Assembly (NCBI GenBank): GCA_021018995.1
Contig: CM037588.1
Location: 146,277,725-146,341,724, forward strand
Direction of reading: 5' to 3'
Origin: Chloranthus sessilifolius
Lineage: Eukaryota; Streptophyta; Magnoliopsida; Chloranthales; Chloranthaceae
DNA length: 64,000 nucleotides
Shown here: in pieces, positions 22,304-54,192 of the stretch
How the letters are laid out: every line of letters begins with the position of its first letter
Numbering within the stretch: position 1 is the stretch's first letter
Program-made: the position numbers and the translations under genes
Notes under the pieces: model-generated
What the model saw: the letters and a program-made list of their open reading frames with translations, nothing else
Databases searched by the model: none
Told to the model about the DNA's origin: nothing

Positions 22304-22391
22304 GGGTCGATTAATCGACCCAATAGGGTCAAAATCAGCTTTAAAGTAGTCAATTCCGTGTCAGACTCTCCTTCTCCTCGATTAATCGACC
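22304..22391. repeat. Two TA-centred palindromes in element A LTR
   Basis: GGGTCGATTAATCGACCC (22304-22321) is a perfect 18-bp palindrome. A second site, CTCGATTAATCGACCC, lies about 70 bp away. Both are kept in the other LTR (near 32786 and 32858). The 12-bp core is the one repeated in the arrays of elements C and D. Confidence 0.7.
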
Positions 22392-22776
22392 CCCAGAAAT
22401 CCGTGAATTTTAGCACACTTTTTGTATCAGACACTACTTTGGTATTTCAGCCATATCTTTCTATCCCGAACTCGGATTGAGGTGATTCGTATGCCGTTGG
22501 AAAGATGACGAAAAGATCTACAACTTTTGTGTTTTGACAATTTCATAATTCGGCCGTCGTGAAGGTCTAAATATAGCCGCAAGTTGTACCAAGTTCTCGA
22601 TGACCCAAAGTTACAGTGTTTTGACATTATTTTCAGAATTTTTGGGCTGTTTTCCACACTTGGCTTGTATTTACCTGAAACACTTTAAATCTAATAATTC
22701 TCATCAGATAGCCTTCATCGGACAGCTAAATATAGGTATTTAGGAGTAAAATATCATCATATTTTAGTACTCATCA

Positions 22777-22790
22777 TACCCCCAAACCTA
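22777..22790 (-). other. Element A polypurine tract
   Basis: On the minus strand this reads TAGGTTTGGGGGTA directly before the LTR start TGATGAG, the expected plus-strand primer position. Confidence 0.9.
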
Positions 22791-28859: not shown

Positions 28860-28861
28860 TA

Positions 28862-30538
28862 TTGTGATCGCCCGAATTTGTTGTTGATCATCCTCTTGTG
28901 TTGAAGTTGATATTTATTCAACAACCATTTGGCCCCTTGGGTTAGGAACTGGTTGGCTCGGAAACGATCCTTTTTCTCTTTCACAGAGAAAAGTGGCCAA
29001 TTGCCCAATTTGGGTCTCTTTTTTAGAGATTGAGGATGTGTGAGAATGAATGAGTTTCATCAGGTCCTCAGTAGAAGGAGTTTGTGTATGAGGACGTTGG
29101 GCAGTATTTCCCTGTGGAATGTTAAATCCAGGTGGTGGAAATATTGGCACAAAATTTTGCTGTGATTGTTTTGATAACCTCCCATTGGTTGTGCAAACTG
29201 AAAATTCTGGTTTATTTGCCTTGGCTACCCAACCTGATTCTGATTGTATTGAAATTGATTCGGGTTATTGAACCCTTGCTGCTGAAATTTCCCTTGACCG
29301 TAGTTCTGCTGCGGTCCTTGGTTGAAATTTTGTTGGGGATAAAAGTTCGTCCCACAACTTCGGCATATTCTTTGATTCTCTTGTTTCCATGAGAAATTTG
29401 GGTGGTTTCTCCAGCCATTTGGGTTATTCTCATTGAAAACGTTTCCTTGATTCCGCCCATAATTATTCACAACATTTAGCTGTTCAGATGTGTCTTCATG
29501 ATAGTTCTACATTGAAGGACAATCATCTGCCATATGCATTGGACTTGCACAAATTGAACATGGCTCAGGTTGTGTATTTACCATATGCACATTCTTCTTT
29601 AATTTCAATTCCTCCACTTGTTAAGTGAGGAAATCAATTTTAGCCATCAAATCCAGGGAATCCTTTACTACGTATAGTCCTCCTTTCTTGGTTGAACTCC
29701 TGGCTTGATCACGAGCTTTGACTGGTTGTTCCCGAGTCTTTGTGAAATCCCAGTGCTGAAAATCTTCAGCGAGCTTTTCTAGGAAAGCATAAGATTCAGT
29801 TTCCTTAAGACTCAGGAATCCTCCGCCATTCATTGACTCCACCAGATGTCTATTTGGTTGACTCAGTCCATTGTAGAAACACTGAACCAGTCTCCACTTT
29901 GAGTATCCATGGTGTGGACATTTGAGTAAGAGATCCATGAATCTATCCCTAGCTTCATATAATCTCTCATCTTCCTCTTGCGTGAACTCCGTGATTTCAC
30001 GTCTAATGACATTAGTCCTCGCAATAGGGAAGAACTTTGACAGAAACTTTTTGACCATCTGATCCCAGGTGGTTATGGATCCCGATGGTAGAGAGTTTAA
30101 CCAGGCTTTTGCTTTATCCTTTATAGAGAAAGAAAACAAGCGTAGCCTAACAGATTCTTCGCTGAAGTTTTGGTAAACAGATGAGCAGACTTCGACAAAG
30201 TCTTTGACGTGCTGGTATGGATCTTCTCTCTCCATGCCATGAAAGATTGGAAGGATTTGAATGACATTTGTACGAATTTCAAACCGGCCACCAGGTGTGG
30301 CGGGGTATACAATGCATGATAGGGTATTTGTAGTGATCGGAGAGAACAGTTCTCTCAATGTTGGTTCTTCCTCTTGTTCAAGTTGTCCATTCATGTTGTC
30401 AGTCATACTGACTTCAGCGGATGATTCCCTTAAAAATTTCTGCCTTGATCTAGCGTCCTTACGATTTGACCGACAAGCACGTTCGATCTCCGAATTTAAA
30501 GGCTCTAAAGTTCTTTCTTTAGAAGACCTAGTGTGCAT
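28862..30538 (-). pseudogene. gag: Element A gag
   Basis: The open frame 30538-29621 (305 codons) has the capsid motifs TTWDQMVKKFLSKFFP and LVQCFYNGLSQPN. After a stop near 29621 the same gene continues through a CX2CX4HX4C zinc knuckle (CSICASPMHMADDC, near 29545), a glutamine/asparagine-rich part (29225-29470) and IGQLATFLCEREKGS (28914-29150), with frame changes. Gag builds the particle and binds the RNA. The start at 30538 (MHTRSSKERT) is the first ATG in frame after the AT-rich leader. The stop at 29621 fits CAA to TAA. The gag-pol junction near 28860 is not exactly placed. Confidence 0.85.
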
Positions 30539-30584
30539 GCAAATGACGCACAGAGCGGAGGTTTCGGACAGGAAAACCTCAAGA

Positions 30585-31492
30585 AAATTTAAAAAAAAAA
30601 AAAAAAAAATTATTTATTTATTTATTTTTTCAAATTCCTATCTCTAATTTTATTTTATTTTTAATTAAAATTAAAATTCGAATTTAAATTAAATTTTAAA
30701 TTTTTTTTTATTTTTTATTAAATCCGAATTTTAAAAATTAAAATTAAAAATTCAAATTTTAAACCTAATGACAATCCTACAAAATCTTATCTAAAAGAAA
30801 AAAATAAGGGAAAGAATAAAAGATTCCTAAATTTTCTAAGGAAGGTATCCTAAAAATCTATACTTCCTAAAAAGACTCCTACAAAATCTAAAATAAGAAG
30901 CCTAAAAATTTTAACTTCCTAAAAGACTCTTAAAAAATCTAAAATGAAAAGCCTAAAAATCTCAACTTCCCAAAAGACTCCTAAAAAAAAAATACTTACC
31001 TAAGAGAGAAAAATAAGAGAAAGAAGATTTTGCAAAGCAAAAATCCAAAAATTAAATTTTTTTTTTTTTTTATAATTAAAATTAAAAATCAAATTTAAAA
31101 TAATTTTTTTTTAATTAAAATTAAAATTCGAATTTAAAATAAAGAATTTTTTTTTTTTTTTAATTCAAATTTTAAAAATTAAAATTAAATTCAAAAATTA
31201 AAATATAAAATTTAAATTTCAAAACCTAAAGACAATCCTATAAAATCCTATAAAATCTTATCTAAAAGAGAAAAAGAAGGAAGAGAATAGAAAGATTCCT
31301 ACAAAGCCTAAAGCAAGTAGTCCCACAAAAATTAATAACTAGATTTTAGAAAATCCTATAAAATATCTAAAAGAGGAAAATAAGGAAAATAAACTCCAAA
31401 ATTTTTTTTTTTTTAAAGCAGAAATACTATTTTAATCTCCAAAAATTCCTAAAATTTACTATCTACCAAAAATTCAGATTTTCTTTATTTAA
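30585..31492 (-). repeat. Element A AT-rich leader with internal repeats
   Basis: About 900 bp between the primer site and gag are over 80% AT by eye. There are two copies of an AATTAAAATTCGAATTTAAA-like block (about 30650-30770 and 31060-31230). About three units of CCTAAAAATCTCAACTTCC...AAAGACTCCTA lie at 30845-30995. The homopolymer runs make this region prone to length variation and assembly error. No ORF is present. Confidence 0.7.
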
Positions 31493-31510
31493 TCCCCGGC
31501 AACGGCGCCA
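31493..31510 (-). other. Element A primer binding site, tRNA-Asp
   Basis: On the minus strand this is TGGCGCCGTTGCCGGGGA, the perfect 18-nt complement of the 3' end of plant tRNA-Asp(GUC) including CCA. It lies 6 nt inside the 5' LTR. Athila elements are known to use tRNA-Asp. Confidence 0.93.
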
Positions 31511-31516
31511 AAAACT

Positions 31517-33256
31517 TGATATGAATTTTAATTGTGATATTTTACTCGCAAGTGCACGAATCGGATTGTATATAGTGGGTGTGGAGTACGAGATCGTTCC
31601 CACGAGGACTAATTTTGAAAGATCTAAAAAGACAAGCAATTCCATAAATCTACTAAGATCTAACAGTATTCTACCAGTCTTATGATTTAGGTGGTTTGAT
31701 GAGATGATAATTACTGACTACAATCTAAAACTTAACTGATAATTCAAAAATAAAGATAAAGATGAAGATACTAAATCCTCCCATCTTTGGTCCGTTCTTC
31801 CCATAATACAAATCTACGGATTAAACTATGAGATATACCATTGAGAACAAATATCTTTTATGAAAGATAAATGGTCAAAAACCCCGATAGGTTCCACATT
31901 GCATCCCTGTAATCAGGACTTAGATGATTTTCATATATAGATATGAAATCAAGGGCATGGCTCGGCACACTTGATCTCAGGTTCAAATAAAAATCATCCC
32001 CAAAGTGGGTAAAAATTTCAATAATAATACCACCATAGATCTTAAATCAAGGGCATGGCTCGGCACACTCGATTTCAGATTAGGGAGTAATTAAGATAAA
32101 ATTACCATTACAGATCCAAGATCCAGGGCATCGCTCGGCACACTCGATCCCGGATCATAATCGTAATTAGATCCACACGATGAAAGCAAAAAGACCATAT
32201 AACAATGATTGGGTAAAATTACCGTCACAGATCTGAGATCCCGGGCATGGCTCGGCACACGCGATCCCGGTTAGTGGCGGGGATTTCATCCGTTCTTGAT
32301 AGCACAACCATAAAATAAGATCTCATATTTTAATCCTAAATTTATATTATTAAAAGTATATCCCTCGGATGGGAATCATTAGATCCTCATCCTTATAAAT
32401 TTAGCCACACATATTGCAATTAAATGACATAAATAAATAAGGAAGAGAAAATAACATTAATTTAATTAATTAAAAATACCTCAACTTCAAAAGAAATTAT
32501 TTTGATCTAAAAGTACGATGGTCTTCAGAAACGAGAATAATGCAGGAATAAACTTGAGTAAAAATATAATAAACTGGAGGAATGAGTACTGGAAATTAAA
32601 GGAACAAAGCTCTCAAAAATGAATAAATAAAAACTCCCTATTTCTATGTCTAACTATGAAAAAGAAAAGCAAAAAAACTAAAACTCTAATCTCCTATCTC
32701 CCTAATTTCTCATTCTCCCTCGAAGTGTTTGAGTCGCTTTAAATAGATTCCCAGTCGCAGAAGTCTCCCCAGCCGCCAATTTAGGGTCGATTAATCGACC
32801 CAATAGGGTCAAAATCAGCTTTAAAGTAGTCAATTCCGTGTCAGACTCTCCTTCTCCTCGATTAATCGACCCCCAGAAATCCGTGAATTTCAGCACACTT
32901 TTTGTATCAGATACTGCTTCAGTATTTCAGCCATAACTTTCTGTTCCGAACTCGGATTGAGGTGATTCTTATTCCGTTAGAACGATGACGAAAAGATCTA
33001 CAACGTTTGTGTTTTGAAAATTTCATAATTCGGCCATCTTGAAGGTCCAAATTTAGCCGCAAGTCGCACCAAGTTCTCGATGACCCAAAGTTACAGTGTT
33101 TTGACATTATTTTCAGAATTCTTGGGCTGTTTTCCACACTTGGCTTGTATTTACCTGAAACACTTTAAATCTAATAATTCTCATCAGATAGCCTTCATCG
33201 GACAGTTAAATATAGGTATTTAGGGGTGAAATATCATCATATTTCAGTACTCATCA
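31517..33256 (-). repeat. Element A 5' LTR
   Basis: Nearly identical to 21034-22776 along its whole length, with scattered substitutions and small indels. It is bounded by the primer site on one side and the duplication GACCA (33257-33261) on the other. It holds the same four hairpin repeats (31941-32272) and two TA-centred palindromes. Confidence 0.92.
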
Positions 33257-33708
33257 GACCACTTTAACGAAGACTCCGAATACACACCTGCGAAGGAGGA
33301 GATAGAACCTCATCCTGAAAATTATTTTCTGTGTGCAAAGAGCGGGTAGGTCCGACTTTGGACATATGGCTTCCTTTATGGGTTTGTAATGTGAATAACA
33401 TAATTTTTTTTGGATAATGATTGTATTAATTTTTGGTGAACCATGTTTCGGTGATGGTCGGCCATCATCGGTGATTCTTCTCGATTCTTCTGCCCATGAG
33501 TTTGACATGAGATTAAAACCATTATTTTAAGCTTTTGATATATAGAATTGGAGATTTCATTTCAGCTTATGATGTTTATCTCTGCTTAGCTATGGTTTCC
33601 TCTTTATTTCTGCTTTGTGTGTGGATGTGCCAAGTGTTCAGTTCGGGGATCAGCCTTAGCGTCGATGCGACGGTCCGGGTTCACGGTTAGGAAATTCAGG
33701 CTGTCACA
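33257..33708 (+). repeat. Element B left LTR, second part
   Basis: Resumes the LTR after element A, starting with the second GACCA copy, and matches 53749-54192 of the right LTR. It ends TGTCACA, directly before the primer site. Confidence 0.85.
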
Positions 33709-38680: not shown

Positions 38681-39183
38681 ATGAGGAGATAAGTGAATTG
38701 TAAAAAGTCCTTATGCAACTCTTATTTCATGTATGATAACGCTATGATTTAGTGAAAATAAAACCGATGGAAAGTTTAAGCCTTACAATCAAAGAGGAAA
38801 TCGAATAATACAAGTTTTAAGTTTTTCTGTCAATTTCGACTGATCAAAATTAAACTCGATCGAATTATAAATTCGATCGATCGAAACCACCAAACAGGGA
38901 CTATTTTTACACTAAAATAGAAAATACACAATTCGACCGATCGAAAAAGAATTTCGTTCGATCGAATTTGAAATTCGACCGATCGAAATAGAAATCGTTC
39001 AATCAAGAATATTAAGTACTAGTGTGAATCTGAGAAATTCGACCGATTGAAAATTAATTCGTTCGATTGAATTTGATATTTCGATCGATCGAAATAAAAT
39101 TCGATAGATCAAAATCGTGAACCAGATCAGTTTAAGTCAATTTCGATCGATCGAAATTGAATTCGATCGATCGAATTGCGCAG
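38681..39183. repeat. CG-centred palindrome array upstream of element B aORF
   Basis: From about 38860 to 39180 there are about a dozen sites such as TTCGATCGATCGAAA and TTCGACCGATCGAAA, spaced 15-35 bp apart. They match the CG-centred arrays in both LTRs of B. The array begins after the pol stop and ends just before a TATA box, so it occupies the position of an upstream promoter region for the accessory ORF. Confidence 0.75.
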
Positions 39184-39362
39184 TATATAAGTGATTCGAC
39201 CATTTTAAAAATCAAAAAGAAGAAAATTTTTGGGGCTTTTCTTGGGATTTCTTTTGTGTTTGTTCTTGGAGATCAGAGGACCGATCTTTCAAGCATGGAT
39301 TCTTCCCGAGATTGAATCTAAACCTCGTCAACAAGGTAAAACCCTAAAATCTCAAGAACTTT
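39184..39362 (+). promoter_or_regulatory. Predicted TATA box and leader of element B aORF
   Basis: TATATAA (39184-39190) directly follows the palindrome array. The leader contains AAACCCTAAAATC (near 39340) and continues beyond element C with AAACCCTAG (near 50110). Those are telobox-like motifs often found in plant 5' leaders. After removing element C, the TATA box lies about 235 bp from the ATG at 50133. Elements C and D have the same order and similar spacing. Confidence 0.6.
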
Positions 39363-40131
39363 TGTGACAACCCGGATTTCGGCACCCTGAAACCCGTGCC
39401 ATCAGCACGATCATCTTGACCGTGCCCCTTAGCTAAGCACGGAACACTGGTATATCAAGCATTGCAATAAAATAATAAACGAAATTGCGAAATTTGAATC
39501 TATATTAATTAACTCTCCAAAAGACAGTTCTACCCTCATGCCTCTACATGAATGGAGAACCGATCCGAACCATCGATGATAGCAATCATCACGGATGGTT
39601 CGCCCCAAAAGAATAATCCCATCTATATATATATACATGGTTTAAACAGAATCAAGGCTTGACATACCAAGCCGTACAAAAACTCTCTCTAAAATCCCTC
39701 AAAGTGGCACAACGGAGTCCTCTAGAAGAAGTCCTCTGGAGGTGGCTCCAACTCTTCACCGGCCGCAAGGTCCGACTCACGGGATCGGCCTCCCTGAAAC
39801 CTCTCGGCTGCTAGTAGTGGACCTGCGACGTATAGTCTATAGGGTGAGCTACATCCTAGCTCAATAGGGAACAAACACGGTTGAACATATAAATTATAAC
39901 TCACATGTATTCTATGATATGCCATACATGATGTATCTATGCAGTTGTTAATGAAACAGAATAGAAGCATTTCATTTTACTGTTGATTACTTACATTTTC
40001 ATTTACTCATGAATGATGCTGAGAAGGCCTAAAGCAAAACTTAAACTTTCAACTTAAGTAATCCCCGAGCAATATAGCATCGAGCCCCGATGAGATACCC
40101 ATCATCGTCATCTATATAGACAGTTTTAACC

Positions 40132-41244
40132 GTATTCCCTGGGAATACAAATAGTACCCAAGCCCCTTTCCCCTGGGGATTGGTGGCGGGGTTTTACTTG
40201 TCTCAATCAACACCCCTGGGGTGTGCTTACCATGTACGGATAAGCCTCCGCACTGGCCTACGGTTTCGCCGCCGTATCGGTCACGGATATCCTGCCGTGT
40301 CAGTCGTGGATATCCCGCCACGTCGGTGGGGTACCCTATCAAACCTCAAATAACAAAAATATCGGTGCCTTACATATAGTTATTCATCGTATAAATGTGC
40401 TATCTTATATCAGTTAGGCCCTATCAAACATGATTCAATCCTTGGATACATCCCTGGGATGTATCCATTTACTTGCATCACACCTGATGCCCTTATCTCT
40501 TTACTTCTTCATCCCCTGGGGATGGCTCATTATGATTACTCTTATGAATGTCACACACACACACTTTTCACAATTTCTTAAGAAATAAACATTTGAATTT
40601 AATTCTATATCACTACATACATGCTCTTGTAAAATAAGGTACATGTTCAAGGTGTTCCCTACCTCAAGTCTTCATTTGTTCAATGCATCAAGGTCCCCCG
40701 TGGCTCCTTGTGCACTAGTCCACACGTACCACCTATGGTACCACATATCAGGTGAAACACATCACAAAGGATGCAATAAAGAAGGTATAAGATCCTCCAA
40801 GAATCTTAAAGTCAAACCCAAAAGTCAACATAATCTATCTCAGTCGATTAATCGATTTCCAAAATCGATTAATCGAAGGTCAATATCGATTAATCGAAGC
40901 AATTTCGATTAATCGAAATTCTCCTTTTCGCAAAGTCGATTCTCAGTTCGAACAGTCGAGCTTTCATTCGATTAATCGAATCCAATTTCGATTAATCGAA
41001 ATTCTTCTTTTCGCAAAGTAAATTCACTGTTCGAACAGTCGAGTTTTCATTCGATTAATCGAATCCAATTTCGATTAATTGAAATCCTTCTTTTCGCAAA
41101 GTCGACACCCAGTTCGAACAGTCGAGTTTTCATTAGTTGATTAATCGATTCCAAATCGATTAATCGAAAACTAAAATCGATTAATCGAAATCCCATTTCG
41201 ATTAGTCGATTTTTCCTCAAGTCATTTCCTCCAACCCCTGGGGT
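40132..41244. repeat. Six odd palindromes with core CCC-T-GGG
   Basis: Each has the centre CCC-T-GGG but different, still complementary, outer bases: GTATTCCC/GGGAATAC (40132-40148), TCCCC/GGGGA (40169-40179), ACACCCC/GGGGTGT (40210-40224), GGATACATCCC/GGGATGTATCC (40444-40466), CATCCCC/GGGGATG (40510-40524) and ACCCC/GGGGT (41234-41244). The other LTR of C and the LTR of D repeat most of them. In D the first has lost the CTG centre (now ACA) but kept both arms. Confidence 0.7.
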
Positions 41245-41410
41245 CCACTGGAGGTTCTCAGTCGATTAATCGATCCCCAAATCGATCAATCGAAATCCAA
41301 AGTCGATTAATCGAAATTAAATTCGATTAATCGAAATCGTGGTCCTCTGACCTTTCAACTTCCTGGCCAATTTCGATTAATCGAAACCCAATTTCGATTA
41401 ATCAAAATTG
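40847..41410. repeat. TA-centred palindrome array in element C 3' LTR
   Basis: About twenty copies of TCGATTAATCGA or one-mismatch forms in 560 bp, often in pairs around AAATCC or TTCCAA. They alternate with TTCGAACAGTCGAG and CTTTTCGCAAAGT units. The other LTR has the same array at about 48880-49490, with one extra pair of sites near its left end. Confidence 0.8.
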
Positions 41411-41995
41411 TCAGATTCAGCCCCCCTTCAAGTTGTTCTTCCCAATCTTCTTCCATACTTTTTCCTCTATTTTTCTAAGCCATTATCCTATGATTTAACC
41501 CAATTTAACCACAACTTAACCCCTATAATCTATGTATCTTATTTACAAAAATTTTACCTTGAATAGATCTCAAGTTGATTTCAAATCAATGGTTGGAAGG
41601 CTAGGGTTTCCAGCTTTGGTTCTAACGGATCCCTTGCGTCGAATCCGGCGTTTATTGCTTGAATCTCTCTTCCTCAACTAGCATTCACTCCTTGCATTAA
41701 TCACTCTCTTCACTCTCTCTCTCTTCTTTACTCTACTTCAACAACCCAAAATACACATGTAGGGTTATTAAACCCTTTTATCCTCTTTTCTCACTTGTGT
41801 GTTGAGCACATATACCGCGGTAGGTATATACGACTTCACATTTACAGCACACACCACATAATCACTCAAACTATCACATCTCATCCGTTCATCACATTCT
41901 ATGCTAACTCTTGATCTTCTGATTGGTCAAACTTGTGACCAATCGGGCACGGATCCCGAGCTCATAGTTTTTGCGTGATTTTTCGGGTTATTACA

Positions 41996-42040
41996 TCCTC
42001 CCCACCTTGGGAATTTTCGTCCTCGAAAATAACCCAAGGC
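41996..42040 (-). other. Element C polypurine tract and preceding conserved block
   Basis: On the minus strand the sequence is ATTTTCGAGGACGAAAATTC, then CCAAGGTGGGGAGGA, then the LTR start TGTAATAACCC. The same block precedes the right LTR of B and the LTR of D. It is typical of Tekay/Del-like elements. Confidence 0.85.
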
Positions 42041-42321
42041 ATGGCTGTCTGGGTTTCTTTCTCTATTTCCCCCCCCCCTTCTCACACTCCAGGTGAGGTG
42101 GTCGAGTAGACCCAGAGGCATTCAAGTATTCACACATTCACACAGACAAGTATGGAAGTAAAATTTAACGAAAATGCTTAATGTCACAAAAATTGGATTT
42201 GTATTAAAGATTGGAAAACTTTACAATGCCAACAAGTGGCGTACAACAAAATACATAGGTATACAGTCAAAATGCAAAATACATATAAACTCAAACAGTC
42301 CCCTCGCCAAGCTGAGATGTG

Positions 42322-43824
42322 CTACGGTGGTGGTGGAGTCTGCTGAGCTGCTCTGCTGCGGTGGTGGCGATGGTCTGCTGCGTCTCGATCGTGAGCAGAC
42401 ATGGATGTAGAAGGAGCCGCGTCTGTGGTGGGATGGAAGACGGGTCCTCTATGGAAGGCGGTGCGTCCAGCCGTCCACTCCTCCTCCTGGGCGAGGTAGC
42501 GGCGGTAGTCGGTCGGGTAGATGTGGCGGAGGGTGTGGAACATCAAAAAGTCCATCCGTCGGTTCATCCGGTCGTTGTTGGCTTCCATGCGAGCCAACAC
42601 GTCCTCGATGGTAGGACCGGATGGGGCGGCGCGCCGGCGGTAGGATGAGGTGGGTGTCGCGGGCGCGGAGTGGGTAGGTGGTGTCGGTGAGGCTGCTGTG
42701 TGAGAGGTGGCCCTCTCCACGGATGGCTCTGCTGCGGCAGGGTGTGCCCCACCCACGGGTGGGTCCTGCTGAGGTGGTGGGGGTGGTGGCGGTGCTACTG
42801 CTGCTGCTGGGGCGGGAGCGGGACCCGGAGCCGGTAGGGTCCGCTTCAGTAGGTTATAGCTACGGGCCCATGAAGACCTAGAGAATGTCTTCACGCAGTC
42901 CGTAGCTCTCACCTCGTAAGGAGAGACGGTGTAGGACGGATCGTTGGAGTAGCACTCCAACATGCTCGATACTAGGCGAGCGTAGGGCATCTTCTCCTTG
43001 GGCCTTAGGTTGCCCTTCATCAGTTTGCCCTTTATGTATCTCATCCCCTCAAGGATGAGCATGGTGGCATCAAACCACCGGCCACAGAAGGCCGAGTAAA
43101 GTGTCTGCTGCACTTTCTCCACGCGCTCGGTGTCGTGGCGCATAGGGTACAAATTGCACTTGACTACCGAGTCAAGCATCCACATATACGGTGGAAGGTC
43201 AACCCTCTTGATGGAGGAGCCCGACCCCTTCTTGCCGTTGGTCATGCGGGTCATGACCTCCTCAAAACGGGGTTCCTCCTCAAAAGGTGGAAACAGGGTA
43301 GTCTCGGGGGTGAACTCGAGGTAGCACTCGAGCACCTCATGTATGTGACGCCGAGTGATTGTGTACAGACGACCCTCGATCGTGGTCAAAATGCAGTCAT
43401 CGGTAGGGCCATCGGTTAGCCCTTGGTAAAAGAGTCTAACCAATCGAGGGTAGTAAGAACCCCGGATTGGTTTTAGAAGGTTGCCGAGGCCGGCATTGTT
43501 TAGGTAGTTTCGAGCCCATTGGGTCTCGCCCGGCACATCGGGATCGGTAAAAAGGGTAGGGTCGATGATATATTCGACCTCAAAGGTCTTGGCTGCCCAC
43601 CATTCATTTGGTTGCACCATATTGGTGGGTGGTGGTGGTATGGGCGTGGATTCGCGGGAAGACTCGCGCATGGATGCGCTCGTCGAACCGGAGGTGGTCT
43701 CCGATTCCGACGGTGAAGGAGTCCTCACCGGCGATGGGGTAGGTGGTGGTGGTGCGGCGTTCTTACGCCTAACCGGTAGCTTGGAGGTTGCCTTCTTTGA
43801 AGACAATCGGGTTTTAGGCGGCAT
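42322..43824 (-). CDS. Element C aORF: accessory protein, 500 aa, open
   Basis: A complete ATG-to-stop frame on the element's sense strand between pol and the 3' LTR. Residues 1-22 are basic (RLSSKKATSKLPVRRK) and could be a nuclear localisation signal. Residues 23-70 are Pro/Ser-rich. Residues 73-330 form the conserved core with EWWAAKTFEVEYIIDP, NLLKPIRGSYYPRLVRLFYQ (115-134), TITRRHIHEVLECY, YMWMLDSVVKCNLYPMRHD and RWFDATMLILEGM. Residues 331-402 are a Pro/Ala linker. Residues 403-450 are a second conserved helical block ending YPTDYRRYLAQEEEW. The core is shared with the aORFs of B and D, and the PRLV.LFY motif with F. I recognise no enzyme motif. It resembles sequences labelled putative plant transposon protein. 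A DNA-binding role is only inferred from the arrays beside it. Confidence 0.75.
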   Translation of the reverse strand: MPPKTRLSSKKATSKLPVRRKNAAPPPPTPSPVRTPSPSESETTSGSTSASMRESSRESTPIPPPPTNMVQPNEWWAAKTFEVEYIIDPTLFTDPDVPGETQWARNYLNNAGLGNLLKPIRGSYYPRLVRLFYQGLTDGPTDDCILTTIEGRLYTITRRHIHEVLECYLEFTPETTLFPPFEEEPRFEEVMTRMTNGKKGSGSSIKRVDLPPYMWMLDSVVKCNLYPMRHDTERVEKVQQTLYSAFCGRWFDATMLILEGMRYIKGKLMKGNLRPKEKMPYARLVSSMLECYSNDPSYTVSPYEVRATDCVKTFSRSSWARSYNLLKRTLPAPGPAPAPAAAVAPPPPPPPQQDPPVGGAHPAAAEPSVERATSHTAASPTPPTHSAPATPTSSYRRRAAPSGPTIEDVLARMEANNDRMNRRMDFLMFHTLRHIYPTDYRRYLAQEEEWTAGRTAFHRGPVFHPTTDAAPSTSMSAHDRDAADHRHHRSRAAQQTPPPP

Positions 43825-44044
43825 ATTGGGGAAACTAGGGTTTATCTATTTCAAACGACAAAGGAAAGTATAAATCTAGGGTTTACCGTGGTTTTGGATG
43901 TGATTGCGGAAGAGAATCGACGGCAAATCCCAACCCTAGGGCGTCGGATGGTCAGAGAAAAGGAAGAAGATCAAACGCTCAAAAAAACCTCAAAGTGAAA
44001 TGATTTCGAATGCCAAAGAAAATCCCCAATTTTCAATATATAGG
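43825..44044 (-). promoter_or_regulatory. Predicted promoter and leader of element C aORF
   Basis: On the minus strand a TATA box (CCTATATATTG, 44044-44034) lies just after the palindrome array. The roughly 200-nt leader holds two AAACCCTAG telobox-like motifs (near 43880 and 43840) before the ATG at 43824. Element D has the same layout with TATATAAATA and two AAACCCTAG motifs, and B has it with TATATAA. Conservation of the order in three copies supports a real promoter. Confidence 0.6.
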
Positions 44045-44049
44045 CCCCG

Positions 44050-44620
44050 GCTCGATTAATCGAAATCCAGAATCGATTAATCGAGATTTCAAACTAAGTT
44101 AAGCCGCGTAAAATCAATTAATCGATTTCCCAAATCGATTAATCGAAAGTCAAATTTGATTAGTCGAAACCATTTCGATTAATCGAAATCGTGTCTGTTT
44201 AAAATTTTAAAATTTTGAGCTCACTGGCGCGAGCCAGTCGATTAATCGAAATCCATTTCGATTAATCGAAATTCCAAAATCGATTAATCGAATTTAGTTT
44301 CGACTAATCGAAATCGGGCTATAACTTCTAATTTTTCCAGAATTCCTTAAATTATTCGATTAATCGAAATCCATTTCGATTAATCGAAATTCCAATTTCT
44401 TCTAAGTCCCTAAAGTAAATCGATTAATCGAATTATTATTCGATTAATCGAATTTTCAAAATCGATTAGTCGAGATTCCAATTCGATCAATCGAAATGTG
44501 TCTTCATGTATATTCTAACTCCCCTTTCAACTTCTAGTCACTGGCACATGCCAGTCGACTAATCGAATAAAATCGATTAATCGAAATTCCAAATCGATTA
44601 ATCGATTTGAAATTCGATTA
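44050..44620. repeat. TA-centred palindrome array upstream of element C aORF
   Basis: About twenty TCGATTAATCGA sites or near matches in 570 bp, many as TTCGATTAATCGAAA. They lie between the end of the chromodomain frame (44768) and the TATA box (44034). Motif type and density match the array in C's own LTRs. Confidence 0.8.
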
Positions 44621-44767
44621 ATCGGTTTTGCCCAACTTCTACAGAATTTTAATCTCTTTATTTCTTTGACTATTTTTGACAATTTATGACAGATTGGATC
44701 AAGATTTCTATTGAATTACGAGCATAGTGGAGATTTCACAAACATGTTTGTGGTTTACATTGAATTA

Positions 44768-46130
44768 TCACGTCGTTGGAAACAAGGCTGGATATTGTTC
44801 TCTCACATCGGCCTCTCGTTCCCAAGTAGCCTCTTCTTTTGGATGATTGTTCCACCGAACAAGCACTAAGGGAATCACTTTAGTGCGCAGTACTTGTTCT
44901 TTTCGATCCAAGATCTCCACTGGTTCCTCTATCATGCTCATGTCCTCACACATCTCTATAGGTTGCTTTCCTAACACATGAGACGGATCATTCACGTACT
45001 TCCTGAGCATCGATATATGGAAAACATTATGTACTCGATCAAATAGCGGTGGTAAACCAATGCGATATGAAACTTCACCTACGCGTCCCAAAATTTTGAA
45101 TGGTCCAACATAACGTGGACTTAACTTCCCTCTCTTGCCAAATCTCATTACACCTTTCATAGGTGACACCTTCACAAACACGTGCTCACCCACTTTATAG
45201 TCGACACTAGTCCGTTTCATGTCGGCGTAACTTTTCTGTCTACTCTGTGCTGTCTTCAACCTTTCTCTGATAATTCGAACGACGGTAGCGTTATCTTCAA
45301 GTAGTTTCGGTCCTAATACAAATTTCTCACCTGTTTCCTCCCAATTTAGAGGTGACTTGCATCGTCGTCCATACAGAGCTTCATACGGTGCCATGCCAAT
45401 GCTTGTTTGAAAATTGTTGTTATATGCGAACTCGAGCATCGGTAGATACTCATCCCAGTATCCTTGCATATCAAGCATGCACGCCCTGAGCATGTCTTCT
45501 ATTACTTGATTTACTCGCTCTGTCTGCCCATCAGTTTGAGGATGGAAAGCTGAACTAAAGTCTAGCCGTGTTCCCATTCCTTCTTGAAATTTCTTCCAAA
45601 ATTTGGACGTATATAGTGGATCACGATCTGAAACTATGCTGCTTGGAATACCATGTAATCTTACAATCTCCTTCATGTATAAATCGCGCCTTCCGTCAGA
45701 TATGTAGTATTGTACGGCAAAAAGTGCGCTGATTTGGTCAATCGGTCTACGACGACCCAAATGGCATTGTGTATCTTGGCAGTACGGGGTAATCCAACAA
45801 TGAAATCCATTGAGATCGATTCCCACTTCCATTCTGGTATTGGTAAAGGTTGCAATAGTCCAGCAGGATGTCTATGATCAACCTTCACTTGCTGACAAGT
45901 CAAACATCGTGATACATACTAGGCGACGTCCTGTTTCAGTCCTCTCCACCAGTAGTTCTTTTTCAAATCTTGGTACATTTTGGTGCTACCAGGGTGGATA
46001 GCATAATTTGACTTATGAGCTTCATCAAGAATCGTTCGTCTTAAATCGACATTGTCCGGAATGCATAGACGGCCTTTAAACAACAAAGAACCATCTTCTT
46101 TTTCTGAGAAGTCTGACCTAATGCCTTCAC
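44768..46130 (-). pseudogene. Element C integrase with chromodomain
   Basis: The sequence starts within the region before the integrase (GIRSDFSEKEDGSLLF), then the HHCC zinc region (EAHKSNYAIHPG to [10 protein letters not shown]). A single stop there sits where D has glutamate, i.e. GAG to TAG. The core has [20 protein letters not shown] and HPQTDGQTERVNQ, giving the DD-E catalytic residues. A small deletion near 45700 shifts the frame; from 45832 to 44768 it is open. The C-terminus has GPFKILGRVGEVSYRI and the chromodomain EEPVEILDRKE...VLVRWNNHPKEEATWERE, ending FPTT. Integrase joins element DNA to the host, and the chromodomain binds histone tails. Confidence 0.88.
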
Positions 46131-47338
46131 TCCCGTCTTGCCACATCGGAAACAACCCCTCGTTCCCGATCTACAGTCCAGCGTCCTATGAGGCTTGCCA
46201 CACTTTGCGCAAGTCTCCCGAGGTGCGGAAGAAACAGTACGAGAACCCTGTGTAACAGTGGTGCCAGTAGACATGGCAGGACTCTCATAGCGAATAGGTC
46301 TCCCCGACGCAAGCAATGGAAACCTCTGTTGGTGTTGTTGTTGTTGCACCGGTCTTCCGAAACCCCCTTGGAATTGTGGTCTCTGATTCTGGGCCATGAA
46401 CCTCGGATTTTTGTTCACCGGTTCGTAGTGCCCCGTTCTTCCTTGTTCATTTCCTCCTCTCTGCTGCTCTCTCTGTCTATATCTATTATTGTTCTCCTCC
46501 TCTACAACCAACGCTTTGCTCATGACCTCTTCATAGGTCCTCAGTTGAAATGGAGCTACGCCTCCCCTAACCTCAGGCTTCAAACCTTGCTGAAACCTCT
46601 TGGACTTCATCACTTCAGTAGCGACGTAATCCGGAGCGAAACGGGCAAGTCGTAGAAACTCTACCCCGTATTCTCTCACTGTCATCCTCCCTTGTACTAA
46701 CTGTAAAAATTGTATCTCAAGCTGGTTCCTCACCACTTCGAAAATATTGTTTGTTGAACTCCTCAACAAACTCCTCCCAAGTCCAAGGAAACTCGGTCTC
46801 CACGAGCCCGAGTCCAGTATCACGGACTTCCACCAAGGCCCCCCCATCCAACATGTAAGTCGCCCATCTCACACTCTCATCTTCCGTGCATGTCGCGACG
46901 CTAAAGACTTTTTCCATCTCCATAAGCCAGTTCTCGGCCTCAGCCATTGTGTCTCAAAATGAAGGAGGTCTCATCCTCCTAAACTCAGAAAGATGAGGGC
47001 ACAGCAACGCAGTCCCTGAGTGTGGTGTAGGTGGTCATTGCTGTTCCTTGATGCATGAGCTGTAAAGGGTGCGGCTTGCTGTGCCATGGCAGCTGCCAGA
47101 GTCTCCATAGTGTGCATCATCCTTTGTCGCTCCTCTCTATCTTCTTGTCTTTCTCTCTGTCTTTCTTGCTCTCTTAGATCTTGATCCCGATGATCTCGAT
47201 CCTCTTCATTATGTCGCTTACTACTCGGCCTCGATTACCTCCTAAAGGCACTCTATTGGTAGGAGAGAGGTAATCATCCCCACTACGTAGACTCCACTGC
47301 TGGCCTCACGTAGGGCGGCCTCTCCCTCTAGCTGACAT
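46131..47338 (-). pseudogene. gag: Element C gag, truncated at the zinc knuckle
   Basis: The likely start at 47338 (MSARGRGRP) matches element B gag. A stop follows after ten codons, and further stops lie to 46950. The capsid part is readable at 46947-46717 (NWLMEMEKVF, FPWTWEEFVEEFNKQYF) and, after a frameshift near 46740, at 46740-46131 (QGRMTVREYGVEFLRLARFA). The two nucleocapsid knuckles begin CAKCGKPHRTLDC and CFRCGKTG. The second stops after the lysine-threonine-glycine, where the sequence jumps to the integrase region. The deletion junction is near 46129-46136. Confidence 0.85.
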
Positions 47339-47438
47339 TTGCGGCAGCATTTGAAACTAAAGTTTCGTTAGCGAAGCCTATGTTCTCGACAAAGAACCCT
47401 TGTCGAATTTCTAAAAGAAAATTGCTCGACATTACCAG
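47339..47438 (-). other. Element C leader with decayed primer site
   Basis: On the minus strand the LTR end is followed by CTGGTAATGTCGAGC, which resembles the tRNA-iMet complement TGGTATCAGAGC with an insertion. The next bases (TTTTAGAAATTC) match the leader of element B (TTTAGAAGTTC). Confidence 0.5.
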
Positions 47439-50069
47439 TGTCCGGATTTCGCACTCAAACCCGTGCCATCGACGATCATCTTGACCGTGCCCCTTAGCTA
47501 AGCACGGAACACCGTATATCAAGCATTGCAATAAAATAATAAACGAAATTATGAATTTGAATCTATATTAATTAACTCTCCAAAAGACAGTTCTACCTCA
47601 TGCCTCTACATGAATGGAGAACCGATCCAACTATCGATGATAGCAATCATCACGGATGATTCGCCTAAAAGAATAATCCCATCTATATATATATACATGG
47701 TTTAAAAGAATCAAGGCTTGACATACCAAGCATACTCTCTAAAATCCCTCAAAGTGGCACAGTCCTCTAGAAGAAGTCCTCCGAGGTGGCTCCAACTCTT
47801 CACCGCCGCAAGGTCCGACTACGATCGATCGCCTCCTCAAACCTCTGCTAGTAGTGGACCCGTGACGATAGTCTATAGGTGAGCTACATCCTAGCTCAAT
47901 AGGGAACAAACACGGTTGAACATATAAATTATAACTCACATGTATTCCATGATATGCCATGCATGATGTATCTATGCGCTTGTTAATGAAAATGTAATAG
48001 AAGCATTTCATTTTACTGTTGATTACTTACATTTTCATTTACTCATGAATGATGCTGAGAAGGCCTAAAGCAAAACTTAAACTTTCAACTTAAGTAATCC
48101 CCGAGCAATATAGCATCGAGCCCCGATGAGATACCCATCATCGTCATCTAAATAGACAGTTTTAACCGTATCCCCTGGGAATACAAATAGTACCCAAGCC
48201 CCTTTCCCCTGGGGATTGGTGGCGGGGTTTCACTTGTCTCAATCAACACCCCTGGGGTGTGCTTACTATGTACGGATAAGCCTCCGCACTGGCCTACGGT
48301 TTCGCCGTATAGTCGGTCACGGATATCCTGCCGTGTCAGTCGTGGATATCCCGCCACGTCGGTGGGGTACCCTATCAAACCTCAAATAACAAAAATATCG
48401 GTGCCTTACATATAGTTATTCACCGTGTAAATGTGCTATCTTATATTAGTTAGGCCCTATCAAACATGATTCAATCCTTGGATACATCCCTGGGATGTAT
48501 CCATTTACTTGCATCACACCTGATGCCCTTATCTCTTTACTTCTTCATCCCCTGGGGATGGCTCATTATGATTACTCTTATGAATGTCACACACACACAC
48601 TTTTCACAATTTCTTAAGAAATAAACATTTGAATTTAATTCTATATCACTACATACATGCTCTTGTAAAATAAGGTACATGTTCAAGGTGTTCCCTACCT
48701 CAAGTCTTCATTTGTTCAATGCATCAAGGTCCCCCGTGGCTCCTTGTGCACTAGTCCACACGTACCACCTATGATACCACATATTAGGTGAAACACATCA
48801 CAAAGGATGCAATAAAGAAGGTATAAGATCCTCCAAGAATCTTAAAGTCAAACCCAAAAGTCAACATAATCTATCTCAGTCGATTAATCGAATTCCAAAA
48901 TCGATTAATCGAATCTGATTCGATTAATCGATTTCCAAAATCGATTAATCGAAGGTCAATATCGATTAATCGAAGCAATTTCGATTAATCGAAATTCTCC
49001 TTTTCGCAAAGTCGATTCTCAGTTCGAACAGTCGAGCTTTCATTCGATTAATCGAATCCAATTTCGATTAATCGAAATTCTTCTTTTCGCAAAGTAAATT
49101 CACTGTTCGAACAGTCGAGTTTTCATTCGATTAATCGAATCCAATTTCGATTAATCGAAATCCTTCTTTTCGCAAAGTCGACACCCAGTTCGAACAGTCG
49201 AGTTTTCATTAGTTGATTAATCGATTCCAAATCGATTAATCGAAAACTAAAATCGATTAATCGAAATCCCATTTCGATTAGTCGATTTTTCCTCAAGTCA
49301 TTTCCTCCAACCCCTGGGGTCCACTGGAGGTTCTCAGTCGATTAATCGATCCCCAAATCGATCAATCGAAATCCAAAGTCGATTAATCGAAATCAAATTC
49401 GATTAATCGAAATCGGGGTCCTCTGACCTTTCAACTTCCTGGCCAATTTCGATTAATCGAAACCCAATTTCGATTAATCGAAATTGTCAGATTCAGCCCC
49501 TTTCGAGCTGTTCTTCCCAATCTTCTTCCATACTTTTTCCTCTATTTTTCTAAGCCATTATCCTATGATTTAACCCACATTTAACCACAACTTAACCCCT
49601 ATAATCTATGTATCTTATTTACAAAAATTTTACCTTGAATAGATCTCAAGTTGATTTCAAATCAATGGTTGGAAGGCTAGGGTTTCCAGCTTTGGTTCTA
49701 ACGGATCCTCATGTTAATCCGGCGTTTATTGCTTGAATCTCTCTTCCTCAACTAGCATTCACTCCTTGCATTAATCACTCTCTTCACTCTCTCTCTCTTC
49801 TTTACTCTACTTCAACAACCCAAAATACACATGTAGGGTTATTAAACCCTTTTATCCTCTTTTCTCACTTGTGTGTTGAGCACATATACCGCGGTAGGTA
49901 TATACGACTTCACATTTACAACACACACCACATAATCACTTAAACTATCACATCTCATCCGTTCATCACATTCTATGCTAACTCTTGATCTTCTGATTGG
50001 TCAAACTTGTGACCAATCGGGCACGGATCCCGAGGTCATAGTTTTTGCATGATTTTTCGGGTTATTACA
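47439..50069 (-). repeat. Element C 5' LTR
   Basis: Collinear with 39363-41995 but with many small deletions of 1-12 nt in its first 450 bp (47439-47890), for example GTGCCATCGACG for GTGCCATCAGCACG. The remainder is very similar. It contains the same palindrome array (48880-49490), CACGGATATCC module (about 48300-48365) and CCC-T-GGG palindromes. It ends next to ACTTT at 50070. Confidence 0.9.
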
Positions 50070-50132: not shown

Positions 50133-51583
50133 ATGGCTCCTAAAACGAGGCAAGCGTCTAAGGTTCCTATATCAAAGAAACCTAAATCTCAAGCGGGTTC
50201 TTCGCAACCACCAAGTTCTTTGCAACAACCTCCACAACAATCCACACCAACACCACCACCACCTACTTCACAGCCACCACCATTAGAGCAGCCAAAGGAA
50301 TGGTGGGCGGAAAAGGAGTTTGCATATGAATATACGATCGATCCGGTCCTTTTTGAAATGCCCAACGTGCCGGGTATAGACGGCTAGTCACTTTTTACTT
50401 AGGGAAGGCCGGATTGGATAATCTTTTAAAACCCCTTCATCAATACTATTACCCTCGCCTTGTGCGATTGTTTTGCCAAAATATGTACGGCGGTAAGAAC
50501 CATAATACCGTTTGTACAAAAATCGATGAACGAGACTATGTTTTCACCCATAGTATGACATGTAAATATCTAGAGTGCTACTACAATTATGACCCCAGTA
50601 TTGACTTGTTACCCCCAAACCCCCAACCAATACCTCGTCTAGTAATAGCTGAGCAAATGACTCGCGGTCGTCTTGGATCGGGTCGAGCAATCAACCAAGC
50701 CGATTTTCCTATCTATATGTGGATGCTGGACACAATCTTCAAATGCAACTTGTACTCCTTACGCCATAAAATTGAGAGACTAGAGGTAATAATGCAGGCA
50801 TTGTTCTCAACATTTAAAGGGCAATGGTTCAACGCTGCTGAAGTAGTTTTTGAGGGCATGAAAAATGTTAGGAGAAAAATGTTGGAGGGGGCTGACAAGC
50901 TGGAAGAGTGCATACCCAATGCAGGCCTCATCTCTAGCTTGCTTGAGGAGTATCCAGGAAGCACTGCATACAAGGTTTCTCCCCGTGAACCCAAATCATC
51001 TGATGATGTGGAATTATACACTTTCAAGTATTGGAAGAAGACATATAAATGCTTGAAGCCACATCTACAATCGGGTGAACAAGAACCTCCTACTCCTATT
51101 ACTCCCTAAGCCTAAGAACAGCCTACCCAGGACGCCCCAAAACAAGAACAACCAGCCCACGATGAACCTTTCGAAGAACAGCCTAAATTCATACCTCCCG
51201 CTCCGCAGTATGCTCACATTCCCATGCCTCCACCACATCAACAAGTTGCCGGCATGACCAATGAGGAACTAGCAGCCCTCATTACAGAGAGCAACCTCCA
51301 GCTGAATCGTTTCCTCGACTACCACGAGTTGATCTTGGAGGACACTATGCATTACATGTATCCAATAGACTACCTCCAATGGATGATGGTGATGCGGGTT
51401 TGTGTGTTCGATGCTTCTACGTTGGGAGTTGATGCCGAGGACCTCCAAACTGATAGGGCGGACGAGGCGGATGGAGCCGATGGAGAGGATGACGCTGATG
51501 GAGCTGAGGGAGCGGCAGATGATTCAAGCATTTGCTTCAAGGAAATTTTGAAATTTTGTGTTTTGATGAGTTTTGATGGATAA
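50133..51583 (+). pseudogene. Element B aORF, broken copy
   Basis: The ATG at 50133 opens a basic N-terminus (MAPKTRQASKVPISKKPK) and a Pro-rich stretch, then EWWAEKEFAYEYTIDP. A frameshift near 50385-50410 is followed by DNLLKPLHQYYYPRLVRLF, TCKYLECYYNYDP and YMWMLDTIFKCNLYSLRHK (50414-51109). Two TAA stops near 51107-51115 both fit CAA to TAA. The same frame then continues through the conserved C-terminal block (NRFLDYHELILEDTMHYMYP) to an acidic Asp/Ala/Gly tail ending at 51583. The order of parts equals that of the intact copy in C, and identity is moderate by eye. Function unknown. Confidence 0.7.
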
Positions 51584-51843: not shown

Positions 51844-54192
51844 TGTAATATCTCAAAAACTCAAATCCAAAAGAGACCAATTTCGGTAAGCGTGCCTGAC
51901 ACGAAAATCGATAACTATTTGAAAATTATGCTACTATACGAGTGTGAGATGTGTTAAGAGTGATTAGACAAACAACCAATTTAAGTGTATGTGAGATAGA
52001 AGTGAACTGAAGTGAACTAAAGTTAACTAATACTTTGGTTGCGTATGCGTGCTTAATAAGAAGCATAACCTTGGTTAAAAAGGGGTTTAAAACCCACTAT
52101 CATAACTCAAGAGCATTTACTCTTGCATGTATGTCTTTGGAGGTTTTAAGGAGAGGAAGAAGAAGAAGAATTCTATTATAACTGCCCAAGTTAATGCGTA
52201 AGGAATCGTGTGTACGTAAGAACGGAGAGTGATCGCAGGCTTTGATCCGATTTCGACCTAGTCGTCAGAGGATCGACGAATTCATTTGAAACCCTCTTCG
52301 ACAAAGTACCTCAAGCGTTGTGATCAATCAAGATAACGTAAGCTATGAAAAATTATATTAATCTTGTGGGATTATGTTTAGATTTAGGAAGCCAAGATGA
52401 GATATGAGAGAAATTTGGGCTTGAAGTGCTAAAATCCAAGTGACAGATGAAATATGTCAATTTCGATCGATCGAAATGGGCTTAGAAAGGTGAAATACGA
52501 TTTTTGGAGAGATTCATTCGATCAAAATATAATTCGATCAAACGAAATGTGTTTCAATCGAACGAAATGAACACTCGATCGATCGAAAGGTATTGAATAG
52601 GGGAATCCTAAAATGATTTAACAAAATTTGACTGATCGAAATATATTACGATCGATCGAATTTGAAATTTTGATTGACCGAATTAGAAATCGATCAATCA
52701 AAGTTGTGGTTCCAGAGGTTTGGTTTCTGAAGGATTCGACCGATCGAAATAGTTTCGATCGATTGAAGTTGTCAGATTCAGGTTTTGTTGTATCTTGTTT
52801 GCGGGATTTTGGAGATAACTTATATCTTTTCGTTTAGCGTCGTTTCTGACATAAGATATGTATTGTCTTAGGTATGAATCCGTGAAGGTGTGAGATAAAC
52901 TTAACGAATTAAGGACTTCGTGCATAACATTGTGTCGAGATAGGAAAACTTCATATCATATGCATTTGAGACTACTAGCATATGAATTATGATCTGATGT
53001 GTTTGTTTTAATCACGTTGAGTTTTATGAACGTGTAAGCATGCGTGTGTGTATGTGTTAGAAAACCAGAGTGTTACGACTTATTTCAATAATGTGATAAG
53101 CATGTGGAATCTTTCGAGAATTCAAACTGTGTAAGATGGATGGGTAAATCCATGTGTGTTAAGTTTTGAAAACCTAATTATAATTAGCACACCACACGTT
53201 GATAAACTATAAGTTATGCATTATGATTTAAGGTTTCACGTGAATACCCGACCGACGCGGTGGTATATCCGTGACCGATGTGGAGGGATATCTGTGACCG
53301 GTACGGTGAGATATCCATATAACCCTTGTGAATTTGTGAATCCTACCTGCCAACGATAAATTGTGTTCGGTACAAGCGTCCATCTTTGTTGGGACCTTAC
53401 GCACCTTATGTAAATGGTTCATATGAACGACGATGGTAGATATTCCATCGGGGGCTCGATATTATATTTGCTCAAGGGATAATTTAAGTGAATCACTTTA
53501 AGTTTCCTTTTCTGGGTATGAAATTCAATAGAAGAATATGTGTTAAGCTTTCCGAATTCAGTAAATTCTTCATTTATTTTCGTCATCTTAGAAATTATGC
53601 ATTTGTATGAGAAGAATCATATTGAGCTCATGTCATAAGATATATGTGAGACATAAGAATATGCATGCAATTTGTTTTTCCCTACTGAGCTTAGATGAAG
53701 CTCATCCCTGACTATACGTCATGGGTGCAAGTGAGGATCTTAGCACGAAGGACCACTTTAAGGAAAACTTCGAATACACACCTGCGGAGGAGGAGACAAA
53801 AACTCATCGTGAAAATTGTTTTTTGTATGCAAAGCACGGGTAGGTCCGGCTTTGGACATATGGTTTCATTTATGGGTTTGTAATGTGAATAACATATTTC
53901 TTTTGGATAATAAGTATATTAATTTTTGGTGAACCATATTTCGGTGATGGTCGGCCATCACCGGTGGTTCTTCTCCTCATGAGTTTGACATTAGATTAGA
54001 ACCGTTATTTTGAGATTTTGAGATATAGAATTAGAGATTTCATTTCAGCTTATGATGTTTATCTCTGCTTAGCTATGGTTTCTGCTTTGTTTCCGCTTTG
54101 CGTGTGGATGTGCCAAGTGTTTAGTTCAGGGATCGGCCTTAGCGTCGATCCGACGGTCTGGGTTTCGCGATTAGGAAATTCGGGTTGTCACA
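51844..54192 (+). repeat. Element B right LTR
   Basis: 2,349 bp, TGTAATATC to TGTCACA, followed by the duplication AATAC (54193-54197). It is an uninterrupted counterpart of the left LTR and shows the empty target of element A near 53745. It carries the CG-centred palindromes (about 52455-52770) and the GTGACCGATG...ATATC module (about 53245-53320). Confidence 0.9.

Follow-up and report, generated by a model that had tools for sequence, protein, structure and literature searches.

Palindrome arrays with family-specific centres in the LTRs and candidate aORF promoters of nested Chloranthus sessilifolius retrotransposons

The analysis described here concerns a stretch of 64,000 nucleotides from Chloranthus sessilifolius (contig CM037588.1 of assembly GCA_021018995.1, positions 146,277,725 to 146,341,724; hereafter the window), which self-BLAST resolves into nested long terminal repeat (LTR) retrotransposons of plant type. 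Three of these, designated B, C and D, are on sequence grounds related chromodomain-type Ty3/gypsy elements with an additional open reading frame (aORF) that lies in sense orientation after the integrase, and all three carry dense arrays of one palindrome, TCGATNNATCGA, both in the LTR and ahead of the aORF. The two bases at the centre of the palindrome are specific to the family and agree between the two compartments, being CG in B and TA in C and D. We suggest that the arrays are operators read by a single protein, most likely the product of the aORF itself, an explanation that as a whole is put at slightly less than an even chance (roughly 0.45).

The palindrome and its centre

The window holds 77 exact copies of TCGATNNATCGA, whereas 200 versions of it with dinucleotides shuffled over its full length contain 0.125 on average and never more than 2, and the runner-up palindromes of the same form (five bases, two free bases, five bases) reach 6 copies each. 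The length of the gap is equally particular, as half-sites separated by 0, 1, 3, 4 or 8 bases are absent and those separated by 5, 6 or 7 bases occur 4, 3 and 6 times. The coding spans that were examined, 15,226 bp in total, contain no exact copy.

TA is the centre of 65 of the 77 exact sites, CG of 8 and CA of 4, and these states are distributed by family. Exact sites are few in B (n=8) and all are CG-centred, four of four in the LTRs and four of four internally; in C the centre is TA at 30 of 32 sites in the LTRs and 13 of 14 internally, the remaining two and one being CA, and in D it is TA throughout (13/13 in the LTR, 5/5 internally). For C and D combined this gives TA at 61 of 64 sites, the other three being CA. 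Elsewhere, all four sites in E, an Athila-type element nested within B, have TA, and a single CA site lies at 5305.

On the plus strand B has CG-centred arrays in its 5'LTR (19730-20039) and 3'LTR (52462-52767), each with 11 near-sites of which 2 are exact, and an internal array before the aORF (38835-39175) with 11 near-sites, 9 of them CG-centred and 4 exact. The arrays of C and D lie on the minus strand and are TA-centred: those of C occupy the 3'LTR (40843-41406; 21 near-sites, 14 exact), the 5'LTR (48879-49482; 23 near-sites, 18 exact) and the region before the aORF (44051-44626; 20 near-sites, 19 TA-centred), and those of D the 3'LTR (58945-59567; 13 exact sites) and the region before the aORF (62152-62616; 16 near-sites, all TA, 5 exact). 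When centres are tallied for near-sites with no more than two mismatches to the 14-mer TTCGATNNATCGAA, the 5'LTR of B has CG at 7 sites, CA at 2 and TG at 1 (n=10), its 3'LTR CG at 6, CA at 2 and TG at 2 (n=10) and its internal array CG at 9 with one TG and one AG (n=11). The same tally finds TA at 16 of 17 sites in the 3'LTR of C, 18 of 19 in its 5'LTR and 17 of 18 in its internal array, and at all 19 LTR sites and all 14 internal sites of D.

All eight arrays that had been listed in an earlier note, made by reading the sequence alone, were recovered within a few tens of bases of where it had placed them, and the check that it proposed, a count of the 12-mer by element and compartment against shuffled controls, gives CG in B and TA in C and D. 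Its central claim, that the centre is matched between the LTR array and the aORF-promoter array within each family, is borne out in the window by exact and near-sites alike. The further statement that the half-sites are constant and only the centre differs stands in part; the centre is indeed family-specific, but B also has left halves reading TTCGAC and TTCGTT. Two further cases are absent from its list, a CG-type array at 5240-5752 and the pair of exact TA sites in each LTR of E.

LTR and internal arrays compared

When only the spacers between sites are compared, the internal arrays of C and D are 78% identical and their LTR arrays 82%, whereas the internal and LTR arrays within one element are 55% identical in C (with either LTR), 49% in D and 52% in B, and more distant comparisons give 42-52%. 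The order of the gaps follows the same division, one pattern being common to the internal arrays of C and D and another to their LTR arrays. Since both spacers and gap orders differ by compartment, the separation of the LTR arrays from the internal ones is older than the split between C and D, and recent copying of an array between the LTR and the internal position is disfavoured by the unrelated spacers. As far as can be read from sequence, both compartments have nonetheless kept TA in C and D and CG in B, which is to say that one switch is seen in two compartments; as C and D are sister families, the TA in both of them represents one event and not two.

Conservation of the half-sites

Conservation was counted at the exact C sites in two-element alignments of C and D, in which the aligner may pull repeats into a motif-on-motif register; sequence logos were not used as proof of conservation, as the site finder presupposes the motif. 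Between the 3'LTR of C and the LTR of D, 136 half-site columns are the same and 2 different (98.6% identical), as against 283 and 69 in the spacers (80.4%; Fisher p=7e-9 for half-sites against spacers), 27 and 1 at the centres and 1752 and 274 outside the array. The internal arrays give a similar picture, with 99 half-site columns the same and 4 different (96.1%; 37 gapped), 19 and 1 at the centres (8 gapped) and 247 and 68 in the spacers (78.4%; Fisher p=8e-6). A control for changes after insertion is provided by the two LTRs of C, in which half-sites (158 same, 2 different) and spacers (368 and 2) show no contrast, so the difference between C and D most likely built up over the lifetime of the families and precedes insertion. 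From their sequence the arrays look like selected operator arrays.

It had been proposed in the earlier note that the TA centre could in principle have come from deamination of CG on both strands, an origin against which it set the retention of the outer CGs in the same sites. Most of these CpGs are indeed retained, with 24 of 26 half-site CpGs kept between the 3'LTR of C and D (54 of 71 elsewhere, p=0.09) and 17 of 19 kept between the internal arrays (12 of 20 elsewhere, p=0.06), neither of these differences from other CpGs being significant. Furthermore, centres that have departed from CG within the B arrays read TG or CA, with one AG, and never TA. Simple deamination is accordingly disfavoured as the origin of the TA centre.

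Spacing and promoter geometry

Neighbouring near-sites are mostly about 20 or 21 bp apart, with 52 of 83 gaps falling between 18 and 23 bp, as compared with a mean of 16.2 and a maximum of 27 in 2000 random placements in which a minimum separation was imposed. For this test a single LTR of B and a single LTR of C were used, to prevent double counting, and the array at 5240-5752 was excluded.

The internal arrays end just before a candidate TATA box. In B the sequence TATATAA (39184-39190, plus strand) and in C the sequence TATATAT (44036-44042, minus strand) begin 8 bp past the last internal site, and in D, where a degraded, site-like remnant intervenes, the interval from the last recognised site to a TATATAA (62122-62128, minus strand) is 23 bp. 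The distance from the TATA box to the start of the aORF is also similar, being 218 bp in C, 237 bp in B once the insertion of C is removed and 215 bp in D to the ATA that stands in place of the ATG, and the sequence downstream of the TATA box is similar by eye in all three. As each array ends just before a TATA box and ahead of the aORF, the internal array is most simply read from sequence as belonging to a separate promoter for the aORF, of which it would be the upstream portion. The LTR arrays sit between a word resembling a splice donor and a conserved CTTATA block, an order of landmarks that is common to B, C and D, and may therefore lie either upstream of the start site or inside a leader intron.

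The elements and their class

Element B lies on the plus strand, with LTRs at 19122-21033, continued at 33257-33708, and at 51844-54192 that are about 85% identical; E (21034-33256) is inserted in the 5'LTR, and C (39363-50069, minus strand) between the internal array and the aORF. The LTRs of C are about 95% identical and it is flanked on both sides by the 5-bp target duplication ACTTT. They differ from one another at 4 of 562 columns within the array region and at 63 of 2024 outside it (p=8e-4), and conversion between them is possible in the array region. The 3'LTR of D begins at 57471 and the element, on the minus strand, continues past the end of the window. From LTRs that are about 81-85% identical, C and D are judged to be sister families, with B more distant.

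The gene order in C is gag, the C-terminal part of the integrase and then the sense aORF. The integrase part (44768-45871, minus strand) matches SH3_Tf2-1 above the Pfam cut-off (E=5e-24) and, in the expected place after it, Chromo (E=6e-5), the latter at 23.3 bits against a curated cut-off of 25.1 and hence below it; the integrase C-termini of B and D are homologous to that of C by tblastn. The chromodomain match and the target duplication of C together place the elements, on sequence, in the chromoviruses, where they would be Tekay-like. The reverse transcriptase of B is in pieces and none was found in C, in which gag and integrase pieces lie close together. Indeed C appears to be non-autonomous, as no protease, reverse transcriptase or RNase H was found between its gag and the integrase part (41996-47441), even though it has an open aORF and dense arrays. 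The primer binding site after the LTR of B reads TTGATATCAAAGC, which is near to what we take to be the tRNA-Met-type primer binding site, TGGTATCAGAGC; the counterpart in C is altered. The primer-site motif of E is presumably of Athila type.

The aORF and its protein

The aORF of C (42322-43824, minus strand, with its ATG at 43824) shares its strand with gag and integrase and resembles the Pfam family Transposase_32 (PF20167; E=9e-8, 32.6 bits), as does that of D (60767-61885, minus strand; E=6.5e-10, 39.6 bits), in which the equivalent of the C start codon reads ATA. The aORF of B (50133-51583, plus strand) has been separated from its promoter by C and contains a frame change and stops; a piece of it at 50357-51109 has a weak resemblance to the same family (E=0.03, 14.7 bits). 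With matches up to E=10 accepted, the core pieces of all three match Transposase_32, the best at E=2.6e-10. All three aORFs score below the curated cut-off of 45 bits and should thus be regarded as related to Transposase_32 and not as formal members. The remaining Pfam matches were two weak and unrelated DUFs (E 0.1-0.2), and a domain-level comparison by Pfam scan found no VANC-associated domain. No homologue was found in a large protein collection, probably poor in plants, at E up to 0.001 or 1, and a single match to a solved-structure profile (E=0.2) was disregarded.

Between C and D the aORF core has a dN/dS of 0.17 with a dN of 0.080, as compared with dN/dS of 0.03 and 0.18 and dN of 0.011 and 0.039 for two pieces of the integrase, and between B and C, where synonymous sites are saturated, dN is 0.56 for the aORF and 0.17 for the integrase. 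Judged by these substitutions the aORF encodes a real protein that is under purifying selection and evolves faster than the integrase. The N-terminal 72 residues are basic, with 11 K/R and 4 D/E. The GC content of the aORFs is 59% in C (42322-43824), 57% in D (60767-61885) and 46% in B, as compared with 35-38% in adjoining 1-kb steps.

What may read the arrays

In the mechanism that we propose each array would be a multimerised operator bound by a dimeric, sequence-specific DNA-binding protein, a spacing of about two helical turns between palindromes placing the bound proteins along the same face of the helix. The operator would be present twice, in the LTR and as the upstream portion of the TATA promoter that serves the aORF itself, and a single trans-acting factor would set aORF mRNA and genomic RNA together; both the dimer binding and this co-regulation of the LTR and the aORF promoter are what we infer. 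The sites of a family would share one centre because one protein reads all of them, and the centre would differ between families because the specificity of the reader has changed. That reader would most likely be the aORF product, with which the element would activate itself or counter its silencing, much as VANDAL does with VANC and Spm with TnpA. Its identity is the least certain part of the explanation, the aORF product and a host factor being close rivals. By analogy with VANC and TnpA, self-recognition is favoured by the density of the sites, their presence at the promoter of the aORF itself and the family-specific centre. The purifying selection on the aORF, its dN of about three times that of the integrase and its basic N-terminus count in its favour as well. 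In its fullest form, in which the Transposase_32-like product regulates its own element through an operator in the LTR and in its own promoter, protein and centre have co-diverged from CG to TA and so isolate the families, and E borrows the operator, this would be a loop like that of VANC; we consider it possible, though less likely than not.

A number of observations weigh against recognition by the aORF product or against the operator explanation more generally. The ratio of aORF to integrase dN is 3.2 between B and C and about 3.4 between C and D, and being similar in both comparisons gives no sign of a burst of change in the aORF when the centre switched. No DNA-binding domain was recognised in the aORFs by Pfam scans, the aORF core is close to charge-neutral (34 K/R, 32 D/E) and an AlphaFold model, with a mean pLDDT of 44, is uninformative. 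Only about two independent centre states are present in the window, and of the exact C sites only 9 of 14 in the 3'LTR and 4 of 14 in the internal array are intact as whole sites in D. The CpGs of B leave no footprint of hypomethylation, 12 of 24 being kept in the array and 30 of 74 outside it (p=0.48), and the higher retention of C CpGs inside the arrays (p=0.004) is confounded, as divergence in the array region of C is lower throughout, and is thus no evidence for hypomethylation. Finally, E has the TA palindrome in the absence of a detectable aORF.

This last observation speaks for a rival explanation, in which the arrays are read by a host transcription factor, whose sites the elements would have multiplied in LTR and aORF promoter in order to borrow a host expression programme, with CG and TA corresponding to two related host factors. 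E belongs to another lineage and has two exact TA palindromes in each LTR, 71 bp apart (22306-22390, minus strand, and sites 32786 and 32857, spanning 32786-32870, in the other LTR), the lower site of the first pair being 40 bp before a TATA-like box, TATTTAAA, at 22265, a distance measured in that LTR. The region after its integrase has no ORF of more than 86 codons and no match to the three aORFs, and one translated frame there holds 45 stops in 701 codons. The earlier note would take arrays appearing equally in elements without an aORF as refuting its reading, and by this test E goes partly against it, although what E has is two sites and not an array; E can also be read, by analogy with AT9TSD1 and VANC6, as a borrower of the operator. 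Host factors are able to drive LTR promoters, as described for HSFA2 on ONSEN and WRKY on EVADE (PMC12786077), and the spacing and the placement beside the TATA box would fit any activator, including one from the host. On the other side, we could assign the palindrome to none of the known plant factors, a complete switch of centre in LTR and internal arrays alike would be more readily explained by a reader that evolves together with the element, and the 11-23 near-sites per array exceed the few host sites that we take to be usual in an LTR. A host reader is thus quite possible, if short of even odds. The suggestion in the earlier note that the aORF product or a host factor may bind the arrays and have co-diverged with them is partly supported, in so far as they are real, conserved, regularly spaced, beside a TATA box and concordant in centre, with E standing partly against the aORF product.

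Two further explanations dispense with an activator. A host repressor or chromatin factor, or CpG methylation itself, might act on arrays that are kept for silencing or insulation; each site offers two CpGs with a TA centre or three with a CG centre, and RNA-directed DNA methylation can target tandem repeats (PMC10398659). It is, however, hard to see why an element should be under purifying selection to keep a pure silencer, and the equal decay of CpGs inside and outside the B array also argues against this reading, which we regard as improbable. Alternatively the arrays might be no more than a diverged 20-21 bp tandem repeat that has spread by replication slippage, in the manner of satellite-like repeats in LTR retrotransposons, and has no protein reader. 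Tandem Repeats Finder does report periods of 18-21 bp and a higher unit of 83 bp, and in one survey about half of Retand elements had tandem arrays in the interval from pol to the 3'LTR (PMC11963269). Slippage would not explain why spacers between C and D have fallen to 78-80% identity and half-sites have stayed at 96-99% despite the CpGs in each site, why the same site stands at two positions with unrelated spacers, or why the distance to the TATA box is fixed in B and C, and it is the least probable of these readings.

Comparison with known systems

The layout of the arrays is, by analogy, VANC-like. The targets of VANC proteins are tandem motifs in non-coding DNA that are particular to each family, and AT9TSD1 is an unrelated element that shares the VANC6 motif (PMC5735166). 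In common with the VANDAL elements, which are Mu-like DNA transposons of Arabidopsis, as they are described in PMC5735166 and PMC10398659, the elements studied here have dense arrays of a short motif in non-coding DNA, a motif that differs between related families (here in two states), an extra protein encoded by the element and an unrelated element that may carry the motif (AT9TSD1 there, E here). They differ in being LTR retrotransposons, in having palindromic sites of 12-14 bp with a variable centre, in the division of the arrays between the LTR and the aORF promoter and in an aORF that is Transposase_32-like with no VANC-associated domain seen. The other precedent is the TnpA protein of Spm/En, which acts via repeated short sites that are not known to take the form of this palindrome. 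Spm/En is a DNA transposon, unlike the retrotransposons here, and TnpA is encoded by the element and activates it, with demethylation (PMC10398659).

Extra ORFs are also described in other plant retrotransposons. The TRP28 aORFs of Retand likewise lie between pol and the 3'LTR, accompanied in about half of the set by a tandem array close by (PMC11963269), and gene23 of Grande is an extra ORF with its own promoter, a regulatory role having been suggested for such ORFs (PMC7264820). Those ORFs are antisense, that of Retand having Transposase_28, and the accessible parts of both papers report no motif shared with the LTR; here the aORF is sense, Transposase_32-like and in a chromodomain-type element. 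Retand-type identity, for which an antisense Transposase_28 aORF would be expected, was rejected, the aORF being on the strand of gag and integrase and Transposase_32-like. Sunflower Athila has a sense Transposase_32 aORF in the 3' position, which is predicted to be nuclear (PMC11728184), the difference being that here such an aORF is 3' in a chromodomain-type element, whilst the aORF of sunflower Tekay is 5' and has no known domain, with no arrays described in the accessible part of that paper.

In the openly available literature, as far as its text is accessible to searching, no report was found of this palindrome or of matched arrays in the LTR and the aORF promoter; a text search with the TA 12-mer gave a bacterial match only, and one with the CG 12-mer and the word retrotransposon gave tandem repeats of pepper. 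Within the parts of that literature that can be consulted, the role of extra ORFs in plant LTR retrotransposons is called unknown or unclear, and a conserved palindrome in the aORF promoter and the LTR provides a concrete candidate for a binding target, with the CG and TA centres as a built-in control for specificity. If self-recognition is true, sequence-specific anti-silencing or autoregulation would extend beyond DNA transposons, and if a host factor is the reader, the arrays would show with unusual clarity how a retrotransposon can multiply an enhancer site of its host.

Other repeats in the window

A scan of viral contigs for two TA-centred sites 5-12 bp apart gave none. The window itself contains one further array of CG type (5240-5752, minus strand), with 11 near-sites of which 7 are CG and 4 TG on the minus strand, and gaps that are less regular (20-22, 50, 64-69 and 91 bp). 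The stretch around it shares short blocks with the LTR of B and is probably the LTR of a further, older family.

The LTRs of B, C and D also contain a second array, made up of 23-bp repeats of the type CCGACACGGCGGGATATCCGTGA, at 20529-20592, 40269-40319, 53250-53316 and 58368-58418, and CACGGAT repeats at 2171-2572 look by eye to be related to these.

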